Origin: an uncultured Rhodospirillales bacterium
GTDB lineage: Bacteria; Pseudomonadota; Alphaproteobacteria; Azospirillales; Azospirillaceae
Direction: 5' to 3'
NCBI GenBank assembly: GCA_903856295.1
Contig: CAIOBP010000065.1
Location: 1-44,689, forward strand
Length of the DNA: 44,689 nucleotides
Of the stretch, positions 8,333 to 15,016 are shown piece after piece. The translations under genes and the position numbers were made by a program. The notes under the pieces are model-generated. The model saw only the letters and a list, made by a program, of their open reading frames with translations, was not told the origin of the DNA and made no database searches. Every line of letters starts with the position of its first letter. The first letter of the stretch is position 1.

Positions 8333-9399
8333 GCGGCGCGAACGATGAACAGCGGCCGTCCCTTGACCTCGGCGAACACCCGGCCGAGATAATCGCCGAT
8401 CACCCCGAGCGCCAGCAACTGGATGCCGCCCAGGAACAGGATGGTCACCAGCAGCGACTCGTAGCCGGGAATGTCGGCGCCCCAGATCAGCGTCCGCACC
8501 ACCCGGTACAGACCGTAAAAGAAGGCGAGCAGCGATACCGTCAGCCCGAGCACGCCGCCGACCCGCAGGGGGAAGGTGGAAAAGGCGGTCAGCCCGTCGA
8601 GCGACAGGCGCAGCAGTTTGAGAAAGCCCCAGCGGCTGTCCCCGGCCACCCGTTCGCCCTGGTGATAGGGGATCGAGGTCTGGCGGAAGCCGATCCAGGC
8701 GAAGATGCCCTTCATGAAGCGGGTGCGCTCGGGCATGCGGTTGATGATATCGACCACCCGCCGGTCCATCAGCCGGAAATCGCCGGCCTCGCGCGGCAGC
8801 TTGACCTCCGACATATGGTCGAACAGCCAGTAGAACACCTTGGCGGAAATCCGGTGGCCGAGGCTCTGGCCGGTACGGTGGTCGCGCACCGCGATCACGA
8901 CGTCGAAGCCCTCGCGCCATTTTTCCAGCAATTCGGCGAGCAGTTCGGGCGGATGCTGAAGGTCGGCGTCCATCGGCACCACGGCGTCGCCCTCGGCGTA
9001 AGCCAGACCGGCCGACAGCGCCAGCTCCTTGCCGAAATTGCGCGACAGCTCGACCACCCGCACCCGGGGCTCGCGGGTGCGCACCGCCAGCAACCGCGTC
9101 AGGGTGTCGTCGCGGCTGCCATCGTTGACGCACACCACCTCCCAGGCGATTCCCAAGCCGTCGAGCACCGGAATCAGCCGCTCGAACAGCGCCTCGACGC
9201 CGGCCCCCTCATTGAAGAACGGGATCACCACCGACAGCATCGGTCCGGGCGTCTCACGCCGCGACGCGGTGGCAGGCCCTGGGGAAGCCGTGAAAAACGG
9301 CCGGTGGGAAACAGGAAAAGGCATGCTCACGTCATCCGGTGAAGGCACCTCCCGCCACCGGACGAACCCGGACGGCGACGGTGCCGCTTGATCGTTCAT
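8272..9399 (-). CDS. Family 2 glycosyltransferase, GtrB/DPM1-like
   Basis: 375 residues from ATG 9399. The catalytic domain runs from about residue 55 (LSVVIPFFNEG…VVCVNDGSRDDTL) with the metal-binding DAD at 144-146 (PMDADLQHPPE), followed by the GtrB/ArnC/DPM1-like segment EAGDFRLMDRRVVD…RFMKGIFAWIGF. Two C-terminal membrane helices (about 255-280 and 290-320) anchor it in the inner membrane. Relatives move a sugar from UDP- or GDP-sugar onto undecaprenyl phosphate, which a GT-C enzyme then uses. The N-terminal ~50 residues are low-complexity and outside the family, so the true start may be ATG 9324 or 9240; none has a good Shine-Dalgarno. It is convergent with, and overlaps by 61 nt, the polytopic membrane protein. 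Confidence 0.85.
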   Translation of the reverse strand: MNDQAAPSPSGFVRWREVPSPDDVSMPFPVSHRPFFTASPGPATASRRETPGPMLSVVIPFFNEGAGVEALFERLIPVLDGLGIAWEVVCVNDGSRDDTLTRLLAVRTREPRVRVVELSRNFGKELALSAGLAYAEGDAVVPMDADLQHPPELLAELLEKWREGFDVVIAVRDHRTGQSLGHRISAKVFYWLFDHMSEVKLPREAGDFRLMDRRVVDIINRMPERTRFMKGIFAWIGFRQTSIPYHQGERVAGDSRWGFLKLLRLSLDGLTAFSTFPLRVGGVLGLTVSLLAFFYGLYRVVRTLIWGADIPGYESLLVTILFLGGIQLLALGVIGDYLGRVFAEVKGRPLFIVRAAYGWGEEPASRTRAGSPEEP

Positions 9400-9511
9400 G
9401 TACAACACGCCCGCTCATCGGGCAACACCCGCCGTTAACGGTTGCAAGCCGGCGAGGCGCGCGGTAACGACTCGGTCCGCCCCCCGCAACCACAGTCCGC
9501 GCCCCGCCATC

Positions 9512-10159
9512 ATGATCATGTCCCCCATCGCCCCGCCGGACCTCGAGCGGATTCTCGCGGCCTTCGCCGACCGGCTGGCCGGCACGCCGCGAGCGGCGGC
9601 GGCCTTCGCGCGCATCGCCGCCACTTGGCCGGTGGCGCCGGGAACGGTCGACACCCCGGCCCAACGCGCCGACGCCATGCGCCTCGCCCGCGCCTTCGGC
9701 ATCGGCACCCTCGACGAGGAGCCCCAGCGGGCGTTCAGCTGGGACGGCAAGGTCATCCGCTGGCGCACCGAGGCTTCGGTCACCGTTCACGAGGTGGCGC
9801 ACTGGCTGCTCTGCGCCCCCGAGCGGCGCCACCTGCCCGATTTCGGTCTCGGCGCCGGTCCGGAAACCGGCTTGAGGGAGATCGCCGACGCCGCCCTCGC
9901 CGTCGGCCCCGAAGAGCGCGAGCATGAGGAGGTACTGACCTCGCTGCTGGGCATTCTCTGGGAGGCCGAACTCGGCCAGCCCGCGATTCTGGCTTTCCTC
10001 GAGCAGAACTGGCTGGAAGGCCCGGAGCGGCCGTCGACGGTGACGTTCTTCGTCGACCGGCTGGAGGAACTGCGCCGGCGCGGCCTGGTCGACGGCGGGG
10101 GGCGCCCGGTCCAGCCCGCCGAAATCCCCGCCCCCGCCTCTTTGACGGCCGCCGCGTGA
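9512..10159 (+). CDS. Small HEXXH-motif protein, EpmC-like in its core
   Basis: 215 residues from ATG 9512 (ATG 9518 is an alternative). The core reads VHEVAHWLLC with His93, Glu94 and His97, then APERRHLPDFG. This arrangement (HExAHW, about six residues, a double Arg, then DFG) is what I recall from EpmC/YfcM, the EF-P lysine hydroxylase, whose HEXXH-type site binds metal. The rest shows no family I recognise, and the protein could equally be an unrelated metal-dependent hydrolase. There is no signal peptide, so it should be cytoplasmic. It is transcribed away from the glycosyltransferase gene across about 110 nt and precedes the large oxidoreductase by 84 nt. No EF-P, EpmA or EpmB gene is in the window. 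Confidence 0.6.
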   Translation: MIMSPIAPPDLERILAAFADRLAGTPRAAAAFARIAATWPVAPGTVDTPAQRADAMRLARAFGIGTLDEEPQRAFSWDGKVIRWRTEASVTVHEVAHWLLCAPERRHLPDFGLGAGPETGLREIADAALAVGPEEREHEEVLTSLLGILWEAELGQPAILAFLEQNWLEGPERPSTVTFFVDRLEELRRRGLVDGGGRPVQPAEIPAPASLTAAA

Positions 10160-10243
10160 ACACGGACTACAATCACCCGTCGACGCCCCCCCGTATGACC
10201 GTGCTATGACAGCGCGCGCCCACTGTCTGTTACGGATACGGTG

Positions 10244-13200
10244 ATGTCACTTACCCTCGGCTTCGATCTCGTCTTCGGCGATCTTTACGATCCCGCCGGC
10301 CTCGCCCGTGTCGACAACGCCTTTGTCGGACACCTCTCATCCGTGGACCCCGCGCTGGCGGGACGGCTGCTGGCGGCGCGCTGTTTTCCCGACGGCCTCG
10401 ACGCCAAGGCCGAGAGCGGGCTGCTGCTCGACCTCGCGCCCCATCTCGAGGATTTCATCGGCCTGCTGTTCGGCATCGGCGAGGAGATCTCGGCGCTGTC
10501 CCGGCGCTATCACGATCTGGCGCCGCTCTACACCTGCAAGCGCCTGTTTGTGCAGCGTCGCGCCGCCAAGGCGCTCAAGCCCGATCAGGCGGCGCTGCTC
10601 GACGGCGATAGCCTGACCGCCGCCCTCGCCCCCCTGATCGGCGACACGTTCAACGAACTCGACTTCGCCCGTCAGGTGACCGCCTGGAGCGCCGATGAAA
10701 CCGCCAACGCCGAGCCCCTGGCCCTCGCCGAGCGCTATGCCGCCTGGGCGCTGCACAGCCCCTCGGGGCGGGCGCGCCACGGAAAGGGCATCCTCTTCCA
10801 GCAGCCGGCCAAGACCGACCCCGCGCGTCTGGTGCCGGTGGAAACGGTCGAGGTCAACGGCGCGCCGGCCATGCGCCTGCCCGATCACGATCAGCGCCTG
10901 CGCGACGGCTTCGACCTCACCGATCACGGCACCGATCTCGCCGGCGCCCTCGATCAGGCCAACTACTGCATCTGGTGCCATCATCAGGGCAAGGACAGCT
11001 GCTCCAAGGGCCTGACCGATCGCAAGACCGGCGCCTTCCAGAAAAGCCCCTTCGGCGTGCCGCTCAACGGCTGCCCGCTCGAAGAGAAGATTTCCGAGAT
11101 GCATTCGGCGATGGTCGCGGGGCAACCGCTGGGCGCCCTGGCCATCGCGGTGATCGACAATCCGCTGGTGGCCGGCACCGGTCACCGCATCTGCAATGAC
11201 TGCATGAAGGCGTGCATCTTCCAGAAGCAGAAGCCGGTCGACATTCCCCAGGCCGAGAGCCGCAATCTCAAGGAAGTGCTGCACCTGCCCTGGGGCTTCG
11301 AGATTTACGGCCTGCTGACCCGGTGGAATCCGCTCAACCTGCGCCGTCCGGTGGCGCGGCCGCTGTCCGGCTACAAGGTGCTGGTGGTCGGGCTGGGACC
11401 GGCGGGCTACACCCTGTCGCACTACCTGCTCAACGAAGGACACACCGTCGTCGGCATCGACGGCCTGAAGATCGAGCCGCTGCCCGCCAATCTTTCGGGC
11501 GTGCTGCCCTCGGGCGAGCGGGTGCCGTTCAGTCCGATCCGCCGGATCGAAAACCTGTACGACCGCCTCGACGAGCGGGTGATGGCCGGATTCGGCGGCG
11601 TTGCCGAGTACGGCATCACCGTGCGCTGGAACAAGAATTTCCTCAAGATCATCCGTCTGCTGCTGGAGCGGCGGGCAAGCATGTCGATCATCGGCGGCGT
11701 GCGCTTCGGCGGCACCCTGACCGTCGAGGAGGCCTTCGCCGCCGGCTTCGACCACATCGCGCTGTGCGCCGGGGCCGGCCGGCCGACCGTGATTCCCATG
11801 AAGAACGGGTTGGCGCGCGGCGTCCGCCAGGCGTCGGACTTCCTGATGGCGCTTCAGCTCACCGGCGCCGCCAAGGCCGAGTCCCTGGCCAACCTCACGG
11901 TGCGCCTGCCGATCGTGGTGATCGGCGGCGGCCTGACCGCCATCGACACCGCCACCGAGTCGCTGGCCTATTATCCGGTGCAGGTGGAAAAGTTCCTCAG
12001 CCGCTATGAGATTCTGGTCGCCGGCTTGGGCGAGGACGCCGTGCACGCCCGCTGGAGCGCCGAGGATCGCACGGTCGCCGGGGAGTTCCTCGGCCACGCC
12101 CGCGCCATCCGCGCCGAGCGCGCCGCCGCCGCCGCCGAGCAACGCGCCCCCCGGATCCGGGTGCTGCTCGACAGCTGGGGCGGCTCGACCGTCGCCTATC
12201 GCCGCCGCCTGACCGACTCCCCCAGCTATACCCTCAATCACGAGGAGGTGGCGCTGGCCATGGAGGAGGGCATCCGCTTCCTCGAGATGGCGACGCCGAC
12301 CGAAGTGGTCAAAGACGCTTATGGCCATGCCGAGGCGCTGCGGCTCAAGACCGGCGACGGCCGCGAGATCACCCTGCCCGCGCGCACCGTGCTGGTCGCG
12401 GCCGGCACCCAGCCCAACACCGTGCTGGCCCGCGAAACCCCCGGCCTGCTTGAACTCGACGGCAAGTATTATCGGGCGCTCGACGAAAACGGCAACCACA
12501 TCCGCCCCGATGCGTCGCCGAAGCCGTCCAAGGTCGCGGTGCTGACCTCCGAGACCAGCGATGGCCGCTGCGTCTCGTTCTTCGGCGATCTGCATCCGTC
12601 CTTCGCCGGCAATGTGGTGCGGGCGATGGCCGGCGCCCGCAAGGGCTTCCCGGTGGTTTGCCGCACCCTGGCCCGGCGCGAGCCCTCGCCGGTTCCCCCG
12701 ATGGATCTGGTCGCCAGCCTCAACCGCGAACTCCGGCCGGTGGTTCACGAGATCAACCGCCTGACCCCGACCATCGTCGAGGTGGTGGTGCGGGCGCCGC
12801 GCGCCGCCGCCGCCTTTCAGCCCGGTCAGTTCTACCGCCTGCAAAACTTCGAGTCCCTGGCCATCCGGCTCGACGGACCGGTGTACGAAGCCACCACCCT
12901 GGCCATGGAAGGGCTGGCGCTCACCGGCGCCTGGGTCGACAAGGAAAAGGGCCTGCTGTCGACCATCGTGCTCGAAATGGGCGGGTCCTCCAACCTGTGC
13001 GCGCTGCTGAAACAGGGCGAGCCGGTGGTGCTGATGGGACCGACCGGCACGCCGACCGAGATTCCCGAGGGCGAAACCGTCTGTCTGGTCGGCGGCGGCC
13101 TGGGCAACGCCGTGCTGTTCTCCATCGGTCAGGCGATGCGGGCCAAAGGGTGCCGGGTGATTTACTTCGCCGGCTACAAGAGCTTGATCGACCGGTTCAA

Positions 13201-13726
13201 GGTCGCCCAGATCGAGGCCGCCGCGGATCTGGTGGTCTGGTGCTGCGATGAGGCGCCCGGCTTCGTCCCCGGCCGCCCCGGCGACCGCAGCTTTGTCGGC
13301 AACATGGTTCAGGCGGTGCATGCCTACGCCAGCGGCGCCCTGGGCGAGACGACGATTCCGCTCGATGCCGTCGACCGGATCATCGTCATCGGCTCCGACC
13401 GCATGATGGCGGCGGTCGGCGAGGCCCGGCACACCGTGCTGCGGCCGTTCCTCGATCCCGACCACGAGGCGATCGGCTCGATCAACTCGCCGATGCAGTG
13501 CATGATGAAGGAAATCTGCGCCCAGTGCCTGCAAATCCACCGGGATCCGCTCAACGGTGAAGAAACGGTGGTTTTCACCTGTCAGAATCAGGATCAGCCG
13601 CTGGATGTGGTCGACTTCCGCAACCTTCGCGAACGGTTGGGCCAGAACAGCACCCATGAGAGGCTAAGCGCCCTGTGGATCGAACATTGTTTGACGCGAT
13701 TGTCGGTCAAGCGCGTGGCGGTGTAG
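10244..13726 (+). CDS. Fused FAD/Fe-S NAD(P)H oxidoreductase (NfnB-NfnA-like)
   Basis: 1160 residues. Residues 1-235 are an N-terminal region I do not recognise. A GltD/NfnB-type cluster domain follows, with C242, C245, C253 and C277 (GCPLEEKI) and C317, C320 and C324 (HRICNDCMKAC). Next comes a two-dinucleotide-fold flavoprotein module (VVGLGPAGYTLSHYL at ~381; VIGGGLTAID at ~559; VAAGTQPNT at ~718). The C-terminal part resembles PyrK/NfnA ferredoxin-NAD(P) reductases: FQPGQFYRLQ at ~858, LVGGGLGNA at ~948, and a C1086/C1092/C1095/C1113 set fitting a [2Fe-2S] site. In NfnAB these modules are separate subunits of an electron-bifurcating transhydrogenase. Here they are one chain. The electron acceptor is unknown. 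GTG 10241 is an alternative start. It appears monocistronic. Confidence 0.8.
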   Translation: MSLTLGFDLVFGDLYDPAGLARVDNAFVGHLSSVDPALAGRLLAARCFPDGLDAKAESGLLLDLAPHLEDFIGLLFGIGEEISALSRRYHDLAPLYTCKRLFVQRRAAKALKPDQAALLDGDSLTAALAPLIGDTFNELDFARQVTAWSADETANAEPLALAERYAAWALHSPSGRARHGKGILFQQPAKTDPARLVPVETVEVNGAPAMRLPDHDQRLRDGFDLTDHGTDLAGALDQANYCIWCHHQGKDSCSKGLTDRKTGAFQKSPFGVPLNGCPLEEKISEMHSAMVAGQPLGALAIAVIDNPLVAGTGHRICNDCMKACIFQKQKPVDIPQAESRNLKEVLHLPWGFEIYGLLTRWNPLNLRRPVARPLSGYKVLVVGLGPAGYTLSHYLLNEGHTVVGIDGLKIEPLPANLSGVLPSGERVPFSPIRRIENLYDRLDERVMAGFGGVAEYGITVRWNKNFLKIIRLLLERRASMSIIGGVRFGGTLTVEEAFAAGFDHIALCAGAGRPTVIPMKNGLARGVRQASDFLMALQLTGAAKAESLANLTVRLPIVVIGGGLTAIDTATESLAYYPVQVEKFLSRYEILVAGLGEDAVHARWSAEDRTVAGEFLGHARAIRAERAAAAAEQRAPRIRVLLDSWGGSTVAYRRRLTDSPSYTLNHEEVALAMEEGIRFLEMATPTEVVKDAYGHAEALRLKTGDGREITLPARTVLVAAGTQPNTVLARETPGLLELDGKYYRALDENGNHIRPDASPKPSKVAVLTSETSDGRCVSFFGDLHPSFAGNVVRAMAGARKGFPVVCRTLARREPSPVPPMDLVASLNRELRPVVHEINRLTPTIVEVVVRAPRAAAAFQPGQFYRLQNFESLAIRLDGPVYEATTLAMEGLALTGAWVDKEKGLLSTIVLEMGGSSNLCALLKQGEPVVLMGPTGTPTEIPEGETVCLVGGGLGNAVLFSIGQAMRAKGCRVIYFAGYKSLIDRFKVAQIEAAADLVVWCCDEAPGFVPGRPGDRSFVGNMVQAVHAYASGALGETTIPLDAVDRIIVIGSDRMMAAVGEARHTVLRPFLDPDHEAIGSINSPMQCMMKEICAQCLQIHRDPLNGEETVVFTCQNQDQPLDVVDFRNLRERLGQNSTHERLSALWIEHCLTRLSVKRVAV

Positions 13727-13822: not shown

Positions 13823-15016
13823 TTGACTTATGATCCAACCACCTATACCCAGACTCAAGAGATCGGCTTCTTCGAGCGGGTCGGCGCATCGCTGATCGGG
13901 ATTCCGCTGGGAATCCTGCTGATTTTCTTCCCGATCGCCCTGCTGTGGTGGAACGAGGGGCACAACGTCGAGACCCAGCAGGCCATCGACATGGCGGTGG
14001 CCCGGGTGATCTCCGTGCCGCCGGCATCGCTTTCGCCCGCCAACGAAGGCAAACTGGTCCATGTGGTCGGAACGGCCACCGCGTCCGGCGTCTCCGATGG
14101 CCCGATGGGCGTCGCCCTTCCCGGCTTGCTGGTGGCCGAACGCCGGGTCGAGATGTACCAATGGCGCGAAAACAAGAGCCGGGACACCAAGGACAATTGG
14201 GGCGGCAGCCAGACCGTCACCACCTCGTATAATTACGAGAAGGTCTGGAGTTCGACCGGCTATAATTCCCGCAGTTTCAAGATACCCCAGGGGCACGTCA
14301 ATCCGCCGATGCTGCTGGCCTCGGCCTTTATCGCCGCCGACGACGCCAAGCTCGGAGCCTTCCGGCTCGGGCCGAACACCCTGGCCGCCCTGACCCGCAC
14401 CTCCCTGCTGCGCGACGGCGACTCGCTGGCCTTCGAGTTCGGTGACGACTGGCTGCCCGATGGCTTCCAGGGGGTCCGCCCCGAACGCACCCCGTCCGGC
14501 TACCGCTTCGACGCCAACGGTGTGCTCTATCGCGGCGACAATCCCAAGAGTCCGGCGATCGGCGATATCCGCGTTTCATATGTCGGTGTTCCGGCCGGCA
14601 AGCTGCTGAGCGTGGTGGCCAAGCAGAGCGGTGAGGGCTTCACCGACTATCCGGTGACCCGCGGCTACACGGTGCAACTGGCCACGGTCGGCGAGCGCAG
14701 CGCCCAGGCGATGCTCGACGATCAGGCGGCGCGCGAATCGACTCTGATCTGGCTGATGCGCTTCCTGGGCATTTTCCTGATCTGGCTCGGCTTCTTGCTG
14801 CTGCTCGGGCCGCTCTCGGCGCTGGTCAGCGTCGTGCCCGTCCTGGCCACTCTCATGGAGGGGTTGACCGCCGCCGCCGCCTTCCTGCTCGCCATCGTGC
14901 TCGGAATGATCACCATCGCGCTGGCTTGGCTGTGGGTGCATCCGGTGACCTCGATCATCATGATCGTGGTGGCGCTGGCCATCGGGGCCGGCTTTCTCTA
15001 TTTGCGAAGGGCTTGA
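13823..15016 (+). CDS. TMEM43-family membrane protein
   Basis: 397 residues. An N-terminal helix (about 25-45, IGIPLGILLIFFPIALLWWN) is followed by a large soluble region (about 50-300) and three closely spaced C-terminal helices (about 305-395). This layout and the starting block FFERVGASLIGIPLG…LLWWNEGHNV fit the TMEM43/LUMA family (DUF1625), known from the eukaryotic inner nuclear membrane and from scattered bacteria, where its role is unknown. TTG 13823 is taken as the start because it puts the helix near the N-terminus, has GGAG about 10 nt upstream, and no ATG precedes the domain. The next small gene follows by 7 nt, suggesting an operon. The soluble part probably faces the periplasm. 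Confidence 0.8.
   Translation: MTYDPTTYTQTQEIGFFERVGASLIGIPLGILLIFFPIALLWWNEGHNVETQQAIDMAVARVISVPPASLSPANEGKLVHVVGTATASGVSDGPMGVALPGLLVAERRVEMYQWRENKSRDTKDNWGGSQTVTTSYNYEKVWSSTGYNSRSFKIPQGHVNPPMLLASAFIAADDAKLGAFRLGPNTLAALTRTSLLRDGDSLAFEFGDDWLPDGFQGVRPERTPSGYRFDANGVLYRGDNPKSPAIGDIRVSYVGVPAGKLLSVVAKQSGEGFTDYPVTRGYTVQLATVGERSAQAMLDDQAARESTLIWLMRFLGIFLIWLGFLLLLGPLSALVSVVPVLATLMEGLTAAAAFLLAIVLGMITIALAWLWVHPVTSIIMIVVALAIGAGFLYLRRA

Follow-up and report, generated by a model that had tools for sequence, protein, structure and literature searches.

We describe here a gene of an uncultured Rhodospirillales bacterium, carried on contig CAIOBP010000065.1, of which positions 1 to 44,689 (44.7 kb) were analyzed and are referred to as the window. 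Its product is probably a single-chain NAD(P)H:ferredoxin oxidoreductase in which NfnL- and NfnS-like modules follow a helical N-terminal domain, a role read from neighboring genes and from genome profiles. Such an enzyme is the simplest account of the protein because of its fold, its cluster set, the ferredoxin-using neighbors of the gene in other genomes, and the rarity of Fpr among carriers. NADPH would reduce the NfnL-type FAD, electrons would exit via two [4Fe-4S] clusters to a ferredoxin such as FdxA, and the C-terminal [2Fe-2S]-FAD module would exchange electrons with NAD(H). Reduced ferredoxin would then feed assimilatory sulfite reductase and probably also heme A synthase and Fe-S assembly. 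The protein may in this way stand in for Fpr in the many alphaproteobacteria where Fpr was not found, the window genome included.

The open reading frame is intact from 10241 to 13726 on the forward strand, with a GTG at 10241 and an ATG as the next codon, at 10244. Since relatives mostly align from residue 2 to 5 of the window protein, we took the ATG as the start, which gives the 1,160 residues proposed in the initial annotation. The codon-position bias of the frame is the same as that of the neighboring genes. Scanning GTDB genomes yielded at least 574 related stretches from 587 candidates, and the best 80 loci were kept (loci are numbered with L and genomes with G below). These 80 loci belong to several phyla and show conservation over the entire chain, with 62 to 79% identity (best segment) and a mean column identity of 69%; the chain is therefore not a chance product. 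Additionally, one long frame of 1,143 to 1,185 codons from the match start runs through in 80 of 80 loci, indicating that members of this broad family are normally fused. One locus whose frame ends before the match (L056) was omitted from the 80-row alignment work and from the tree.

We then compared an AlphaFold2 model of the whole chain, built from the 80 sequences (mean predicted local distance difference test score [pLDDT], 87.9; predicted template modeling score [pTM], 0.91), with solved structures using VIA-align 2. In this predicted model, residues 830 to 1154 matched the NfnI small subunit 5jca_S (Z 30.1; 2.2 Å; 274 of 279 residues) and residues 187 to 811 matched 5jfc_L (Z 23.7; 2.5 Å; 434 of 463 residues). 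The next-best matches of the latter half were GltD (7mfm_I; Z 22.6) and dihydropyrimidine dehydrogenase (Z 21.9), and the C-terminal part also resembled PyrK (Z 25). Similarly, Xfn and NfnI topped the list when the whole-chain model was submitted to Foldseek. The arrangement proposed initially, an NfnB-like module followed by an NfnA-like module in one chain, is thus borne out on the predicted model, and the C-terminal FNR/PyrK fold is present. The pLDDT falls below 50 at residues 448 to 460, just before R461, and in the loop 1082 to 1091, near C1086. Pfam recognized the dinucleotide-binding part (PF07992; 5e-14, above the cutoff) and gave a weak match to Fer4_20 (19.4 bits; cutoff, 25.8); at E ≤ 1 it reported neither the C-terminal FNR/PyrK-type part, which NCBIfam PyrK-type models did match, nor an amidotransferase domain, nor PF00667, the FAD-binding domain of CysJ.

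Residues 1 to 235 were said at first to match nothing. This stands for Pfam, PDB sequences, and PDB folds but not for NCBIfam, where NF005128 spans them. Folded alone, they gave a pLDDT of 88.5 and a pTM of 0.63, and their mean column identity is 52%, versus 69% for the whole chain. Foldseek returned nothing at E ≤ 0.001 (best E, 1.7), VIA-align 2 reached a Z of only 4.5 against PDB folds, and the best E against PDB sequences was 0.64. When this region of 66 members was searched against Pfam, no family was matched by more than 2 of the 66 at E ≤ 1, and none of the matches listed in the genomes of 59 relatives was confined to the N terminus. The domain is without relatives outside its own family in the libraries searched, which does not imply a new fold.

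All eleven cysteines named in the initial annotation (C242, C245, C253, C277, C317, C320, C324, C1086, C1092, C1095, and C1113) lie where they were placed. They are invariant in the 80-row alignment and, with eight more members, in 88 of 88 rows. By homology, Glu338 fills the two-cluster set as an eighth ligand beyond the seven N-terminal cysteines. The ligands would pair into a cluster nearest the flavin (C277/C317/C320/E338) and an outermost one (C242/C245/C253/C324); this proximal and distal pairing we presume from homology to NfnL and dihydropyrimidine dehydrogenase.

To place the residues regarded as hallmarks of Nfn, we used as a bridge an NfnA-NfnB-ferritin fusion from another genome of the same genus (L092; TIGR01316, 541 bits; cutoff, 471.75), aligned to solved NfnL and NfnS, and scored each site over the 88 aligned members. 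The equivalent of NfnL E126, the proximal-cluster Glu ligand, is E338, which is Glu in all 88. The FAD-contacting R201 corresponds to R461, likewise invariant; here the profile alignment through L092 gaps the stretch differently, the phmmer alignment was relied on, and the local pLDDT is low. In contrast, all 88 members have Asn at the R333 site, and all 88 have Cys (C1086) where the [2Fe-2S] cluster of NfnS has its Asp ligand. Judged from these alignments, the window family retains half of the hallmark set, with E338 and R461 kept and R333 and the Asp ligand replaced.

This bears on the alternative that the protein is a true one-chain Nfn transhydrogenase, bifurcating or confurcating electrons so that those of NADPH are split at the NfnL flavin between ferredoxin and NAD+. 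Both nucleotide modules are kept together in 80 loci, the subunits of Pyrococcus furiosus Nfn and Xfn are the best structural matches of both halves, and E338 and R461 are invariant. However, R333 has been described as highly conserved solely in bifurcating enzymes (available part of PMC12921514), and the replacement of two of the four hallmarks in all 88 members weakens the case for bifurcation. According to the part of PMC9503767 available, replacing the Glu ligand by Cys uncouples the branches. The Glu at the E338 site is not specific to Nfn, because the GltD of the window genome has Glu there too (and Lys at the R461 site). Moreover, carriers include Azospirillum and Skermanella, genera that live aerobically. 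We consider bifurcation possible yet unlikely. Of the one-piece NADPH:ferredoxin/NADH enzyme first suggested from the sequence, the overall activity coincides with the reading preferred here on the basis of neighbor genes and the Fpr profile, while its bifurcating form is the part that lost ground.

Gene orders, read together with tblastn searches, revealed neighboring assimilatory sulfite reductase genes in 6 of the 80 loci and in three further genomes, with about 0.12 such loci expected by chance in 80 (a rough estimate). These contexts amount to five arrangements. The order is sulfite reductase-precorrin-2 dehydrogenase-gene in L016, L034, and L038 and sulfite reductase-gene in L009, with reductases of 722 to 744 residues. 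In L021, the order is CysI-precorrin-2 dehydrogenase-gene, and this CysI (570 residues) is 24% identical to the longer type. L063 and G013 have a cysG-DUF2849-cysI-DUF934-cysH set convergent with the gene, and G044 has cysI-cysH-gene. In G120, the order is cysI-sirN-cysH-cysD-cysNC-gene, the ATG lying 2 bp behind the cysNC stop (cysD and cysNC were named by eye). An in-frame TGA suspected in the G120 copy proved to be the gene's own stop codon. G440 has the same CysI and SirN as L021 (100% identity) and was not recounted beside it, but it is included in the class tallies below. On a quick 88-row tree, the sulfite label required five changes (gains or losses), at least four of them forced by supported branches, when set against COX15-labeled rows with the 62 other rows left out.

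In L063, the ferredoxin FdxA (NF045490, 164.7 bits; cutoff, 135) is encoded about 100 bp upstream of the gene on the same strand, and L028 has an FdxA-like match about 4 kb away. A regular-expression search for ferredoxins near the gene yielded mostly chance frames. As a separate observation, an RsxB-like ferredoxin-type gene lies downstream of the gene in three related betaproteobacterial loci (L040, L044, and, partial, L031).

In 22 of the 80 loci (L004, L013, and L061 among them), the heme A synthase gene COX15/CtaA is found upstream on the opposite strand, and in 15 it is the closest called gene; the 22 loci are alphaproteobacterial, judging by title or tree position. In a clustering of neighbors over all loci, COX15 was the sole common one, most loci having no shared neighbor. 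The divergent COX15/CtaA may point to a link with electron supply to heme A synthase. In yeast, Cox15 and Fe-S assembly both need one ferredoxin and its reductase (PMC7140478, as far as available).

We also asked which genomes carry Fpr, using a query from G006 (E ≤ 1e-20) on 80 genomes, each at least 90% complete, that were hand-picked among known carriers and non-carriers before the result was known. Fpr was found in 6 of 40 carriers versus 23 of 40 non-carriers (Fisher P = 1.5e-4). The difference persisted when families were counted (3 of 29 versus 13 of 26; P = 0.0023) and when the test was stratified over three genome-size classes (P = 0.0022). The window genome, which is 99% complete, matched neither Fpr nor PF00667. 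It does have a CysI operon, with cysI on a different contig from the window. PF00667 occurs in 3 of the genomes of the 59 relatives. Of 299 genomes sampled from the phylum, 42 had E. coli-type CysI (TIGR02041, E ≤ 1e-40), and 41 of those had PF00667, the exception being G120. In a class sample of 385 genomes, 30 had E. coli-type CysI, 7 of them with PF00667, and the gene was present in 12 of these 30 versus 77 of the 355 others (P = 0.039).

Several observations weigh against a ferredoxin reductase acting in place of Fpr and supplying sulfite reductase. The Fpr sample was hand-chosen and its related genomes are not independent; 6 of 40 carriers have Fpr as well, two Azospirillum loci (L008 and L080) have it about 6 kb from the gene, and 17 of 40 non-carriers likewise lack it. 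The FdxA adjacency was seen once. No sulfite reductase was found in the window or near the gene in 74 of 80 loci, many flanks being cut by contig ends. Carriage showed no link to having any sulfite or nitrite reductase (PF03460; 16 of 22 carriers versus 30 of 37 others among the relatives). Among class-sample genomes with CysI, the gene is present in 10 and absent in 13 of the 23 without PF00667 and present in 2 of the 7 with it; as only 10 of these 23 carry it, the gene cannot be the sole replacement of CysJ. The CysI proteins of L021 and G010 pass the cutoff of PRK13504, a model named NADPH-dependent. Finally, the gene is retained in genomes of 1.3 to 2 Mb. Given this retention in small genomes and the absence of a PF03460 reductase from 6 of 22 carriers, a role in sulfite reduction only is unlikely.

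In the broadest version of the preferred reading, a large conserved enzyme family, obscured to date by a misleading name and retained even in genomes of 1.3 Mb, would be the housekeeping ferredoxin reductase of many alphaproteobacteria; it would couple NADPH and NADH through its flavins in aerobes and power sulfite reduction and heme A synthesis. Taken as a whole, this is unlikely.

Alternatively, the protein could be a dedicated electron donor of sulfite reductase, docking directly on the hemoprotein in place of CysJ. The operon-like positions in L009, L016, L021, L034, L038, G044, and G120 would fit, as would the fact that two distant reductase types occupy the same place, the combination of CysI without PF00667 in G120, and the PRK13504 scores of the L021 and G010 CysI proteins. 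However, these same CysI proteins score slightly higher with the ferredoxin-dependent TIGR02042 than with TIGR02041, both below the cutoff, and the 74 loci without such a gene nearby, the very small genomes, and the six carriers free of PF03460 all speak against it. Of these six, G012 and G018 are 100% complete with a full-length copy, whereas the copies in G039, G053, and G054 are partial or interrupted. We therefore regard direct donation as improbable. A role of the glutamate synthase beta (GltD) type, as in the family name NF005128, can be set aside as highly improbable despite that name and the close structural match to GltD, since the genome's own GltD sits beside an apparent glutamate synthase large subunit (by eye) and carries a Lys in place of R461, the GltD model TIGR01317 gives 35.6 of 447.7 bits, and the chain lacks a Pfam amidotransferase domain at E ≤ 1.

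If the flavins are indeed coupled, Nfn-type chemistry would reach further into aerobes. The gene makes two questions directly testable, namely, who reduces ferredoxin in alphaproteobacteria without Fpr and who feeds sulfite reductase without CysJ. Compared with Fpr and CysJ, for which the same kind of job is proposed, the window protein is a different and larger protein, and no PF00667 domain was found in it.

The best NCBIfam model was NF005128/PRK06567, named "putative bifunctional glutamate synthase subunit beta/2-polyprenylphenol hydroxylase" (E = 1.7e-224). The match is co-linear, including the N-terminal domain, with residues 4 to 963 corresponding to model positions 2 to 915 of 1031 in the best stretch and model positions 935 to 1028 matched in another. 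In contrast, its 748 bits are below the curated cutoff of 1072, as are the 802 bits of the G044 member. We take "polyprenylphenol hydroxylase" to be an old naming of FNR-like proteins. The window protein is thus a relative of a named family, and a literature search found no tested reaction behind that name. The search returned no paper with PRK06567 or NF005128, none pairing "2-polyprenylphenol hydroxylase" with "glutamate synthase subunit beta," none on the subject among those listed for the solved entries 9N5U and 9N5V, and, Neorickettsia naming aside, no study of the window protein among the papers listed. In Neorickettsia, a similarly named product was counted among the enzymes turning glutamine into glutamate and ammonia (available part of PMC5481527). 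Our analysis may correct an annotation used in metabolic reading of this kind, and the Neorickettsia reading would be doubtful if that protein belongs to the window family.

Compared with NfnI (P. furiosus 5jca/5jfc; Thermotoga maritima 4ylf), the window protein shares both folds nearly at full length, the two-cluster domain with its Glu ligand position, R201, and the PyrK-type [2Fe-2S] site. It differs in being one chain in the order L-S with an extra 235-residue N-terminal domain, in its insertions at 254 to 276, 407 to 450, and 577 to 645, and in having Asn for R333 and Cys for the [2Fe-2S] Asp. The NfnB-NfnA fusion as such is not new. Indeed, Liu et al. (2019; PMC6405883), in the portion available, list uncharacterized fused Nfn homologs in this order ("Pattern C") from Actinobacteria, Alphaproteobacteria, and Gammaproteobacteria that resemble the window protein in being single chains with the NfnB part first. 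They are about 200 residues longer than other fused Nfn proteins, and that portion makes no mention of an extra N-terminal domain. The window protein scores 72 bits with PRK12779/NF009415, whose cutoff is 1519. We would guess that PRK12779 covers the Pattern C homologs. One aerobe with an Nfn homolog, the acidobacterium Koribacter, is named in the part of Poudel et al. (2018) available. The L092 fusion, which is PRK12775-like, has the same two modules in one chain but in reverse order, with a ferritin-like end in place of the helical start, and it retains the complete set of four Nfn hallmarks (D229, R489, R624, and E421). It lies at L092:1026-4052 in genome G001 (PRK12775, 1877.6 bits; cutoff, 1895), and at least one carrier thus has both enzymes. 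Matches in frames of similar length were seen in G004 and G009.

By their titles, the best 80 loci come from Azospirillum, Skermanella, and other alphaproteobacteria, Gallionella and other betaproteobacteria, Bryobacterales and other Acidobacteriota, and Planctomycetota, so that the same long fusion occurs in Pseudomonadota, Acidobacteriota, and Planctomycetota. Of the 299 phylum-sample genomes, 15 matched NF005128 strongly (E ≤ 1.6e-97), and none of the 299 passed its cutoff. In the class sample, the window protein was matched at E ≤ 1e-60 in 89 of 385 genomes, some copies being partial or interrupted. These carriers include the genomes of 1.3 to 2.0 Mb; identity drops to 35 to 45% in a few copies from such small genomes. 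The quick tree places the Acidobacteriota and Planctomycetota rows, together with one Nevskia row, within alphaproteobacterial diversity, and likewise a mostly betaproteobacterial group; the deepest rows are long-branched and of unsure placement. This nesting suggests that the gene was transferred to Acidobacteriota, Planctomycetota, and the mostly betaproteobacterial group. The copy in L024, titled Anaerolineae (Chloroflexota), pairs on the tree with the alphaproteobacterial L082 from the same project, probably a binning error.

Table 1. Coordinates of the gene and its features in the window
Feature	Positions	Strand	Basis or remark
Whole gene, single-chain NfnL-NfnS-like oxidoreductase	10244..13726	+	1,160 residues plus stop
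Family-specific, mostly helical domain, residues 1-235	10244..10948	+	Predicted model; NF005128 spans the domain
Two-cluster [4Fe-4S] domain, residues 236-346	10949..11281	+	Aligns to cluster domains of L092 NfnB and own-genome GltD
NfnL/GltD-like FAD and NADP(H) Rossmann domains, residues 370-811	11351..12676	+	PF07992; 5jfc_L match
Insertion relative to NfnB, residues 407-450, with well-conserved DGLKIEPL	11462..11593	+	Gaps versus L092 NfnB; conserved columns
R461, equivalent of NfnL R201 (contacts L-FAD)	11624..11626	+	phmmer alignment to 5jca_L; 88/88
Helical insertion in NADP-binding domain, residues 577-645	11972..12178	+	Alignment gaps; model helices 563-595 and 606-631
N665, corresponding to NfnL R333, which is Arg in bifurcating enzymes	12236..12238	+	Two alignments agree; Asn in 88/88
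NfnS/PyrK-like FAD, NAD(P), [2Fe-2S] part, residues 830-1154	12731..13705	+	5jca_S match
Predicted [2Fe-2S] site, C1086-x5-C1092-x2-C1095-x17-C1113	13499..13582	+	Alignment to L092 NfnA; 88/88

The near neighbors identified in the window itself, a glycosyltransferase, a TMEM43-like protein, and an amidase, are uninformative on the role, and no glutamate synthase was found among the ten window open reading frames scanned. The gene 88 bp upstream (9398-10159, +) has a weak EpmC-like match (20.3 bits; cutoff, 23.8), its start and identity being unsure. Directly downstream (13823-15016, +), a TMEM43-like membrane protein is encoded (PF07787, 1.1e-59). In betaproteobacteria, an upstream cluster (L028:933-7874 and L047:1234-7859) encodes, as named by eye, an AprA-like flavoprotein and a ferredoxin-like protein, together with a sulfonate/nitrate-type ABC transporter and a DUF971-like small protein.

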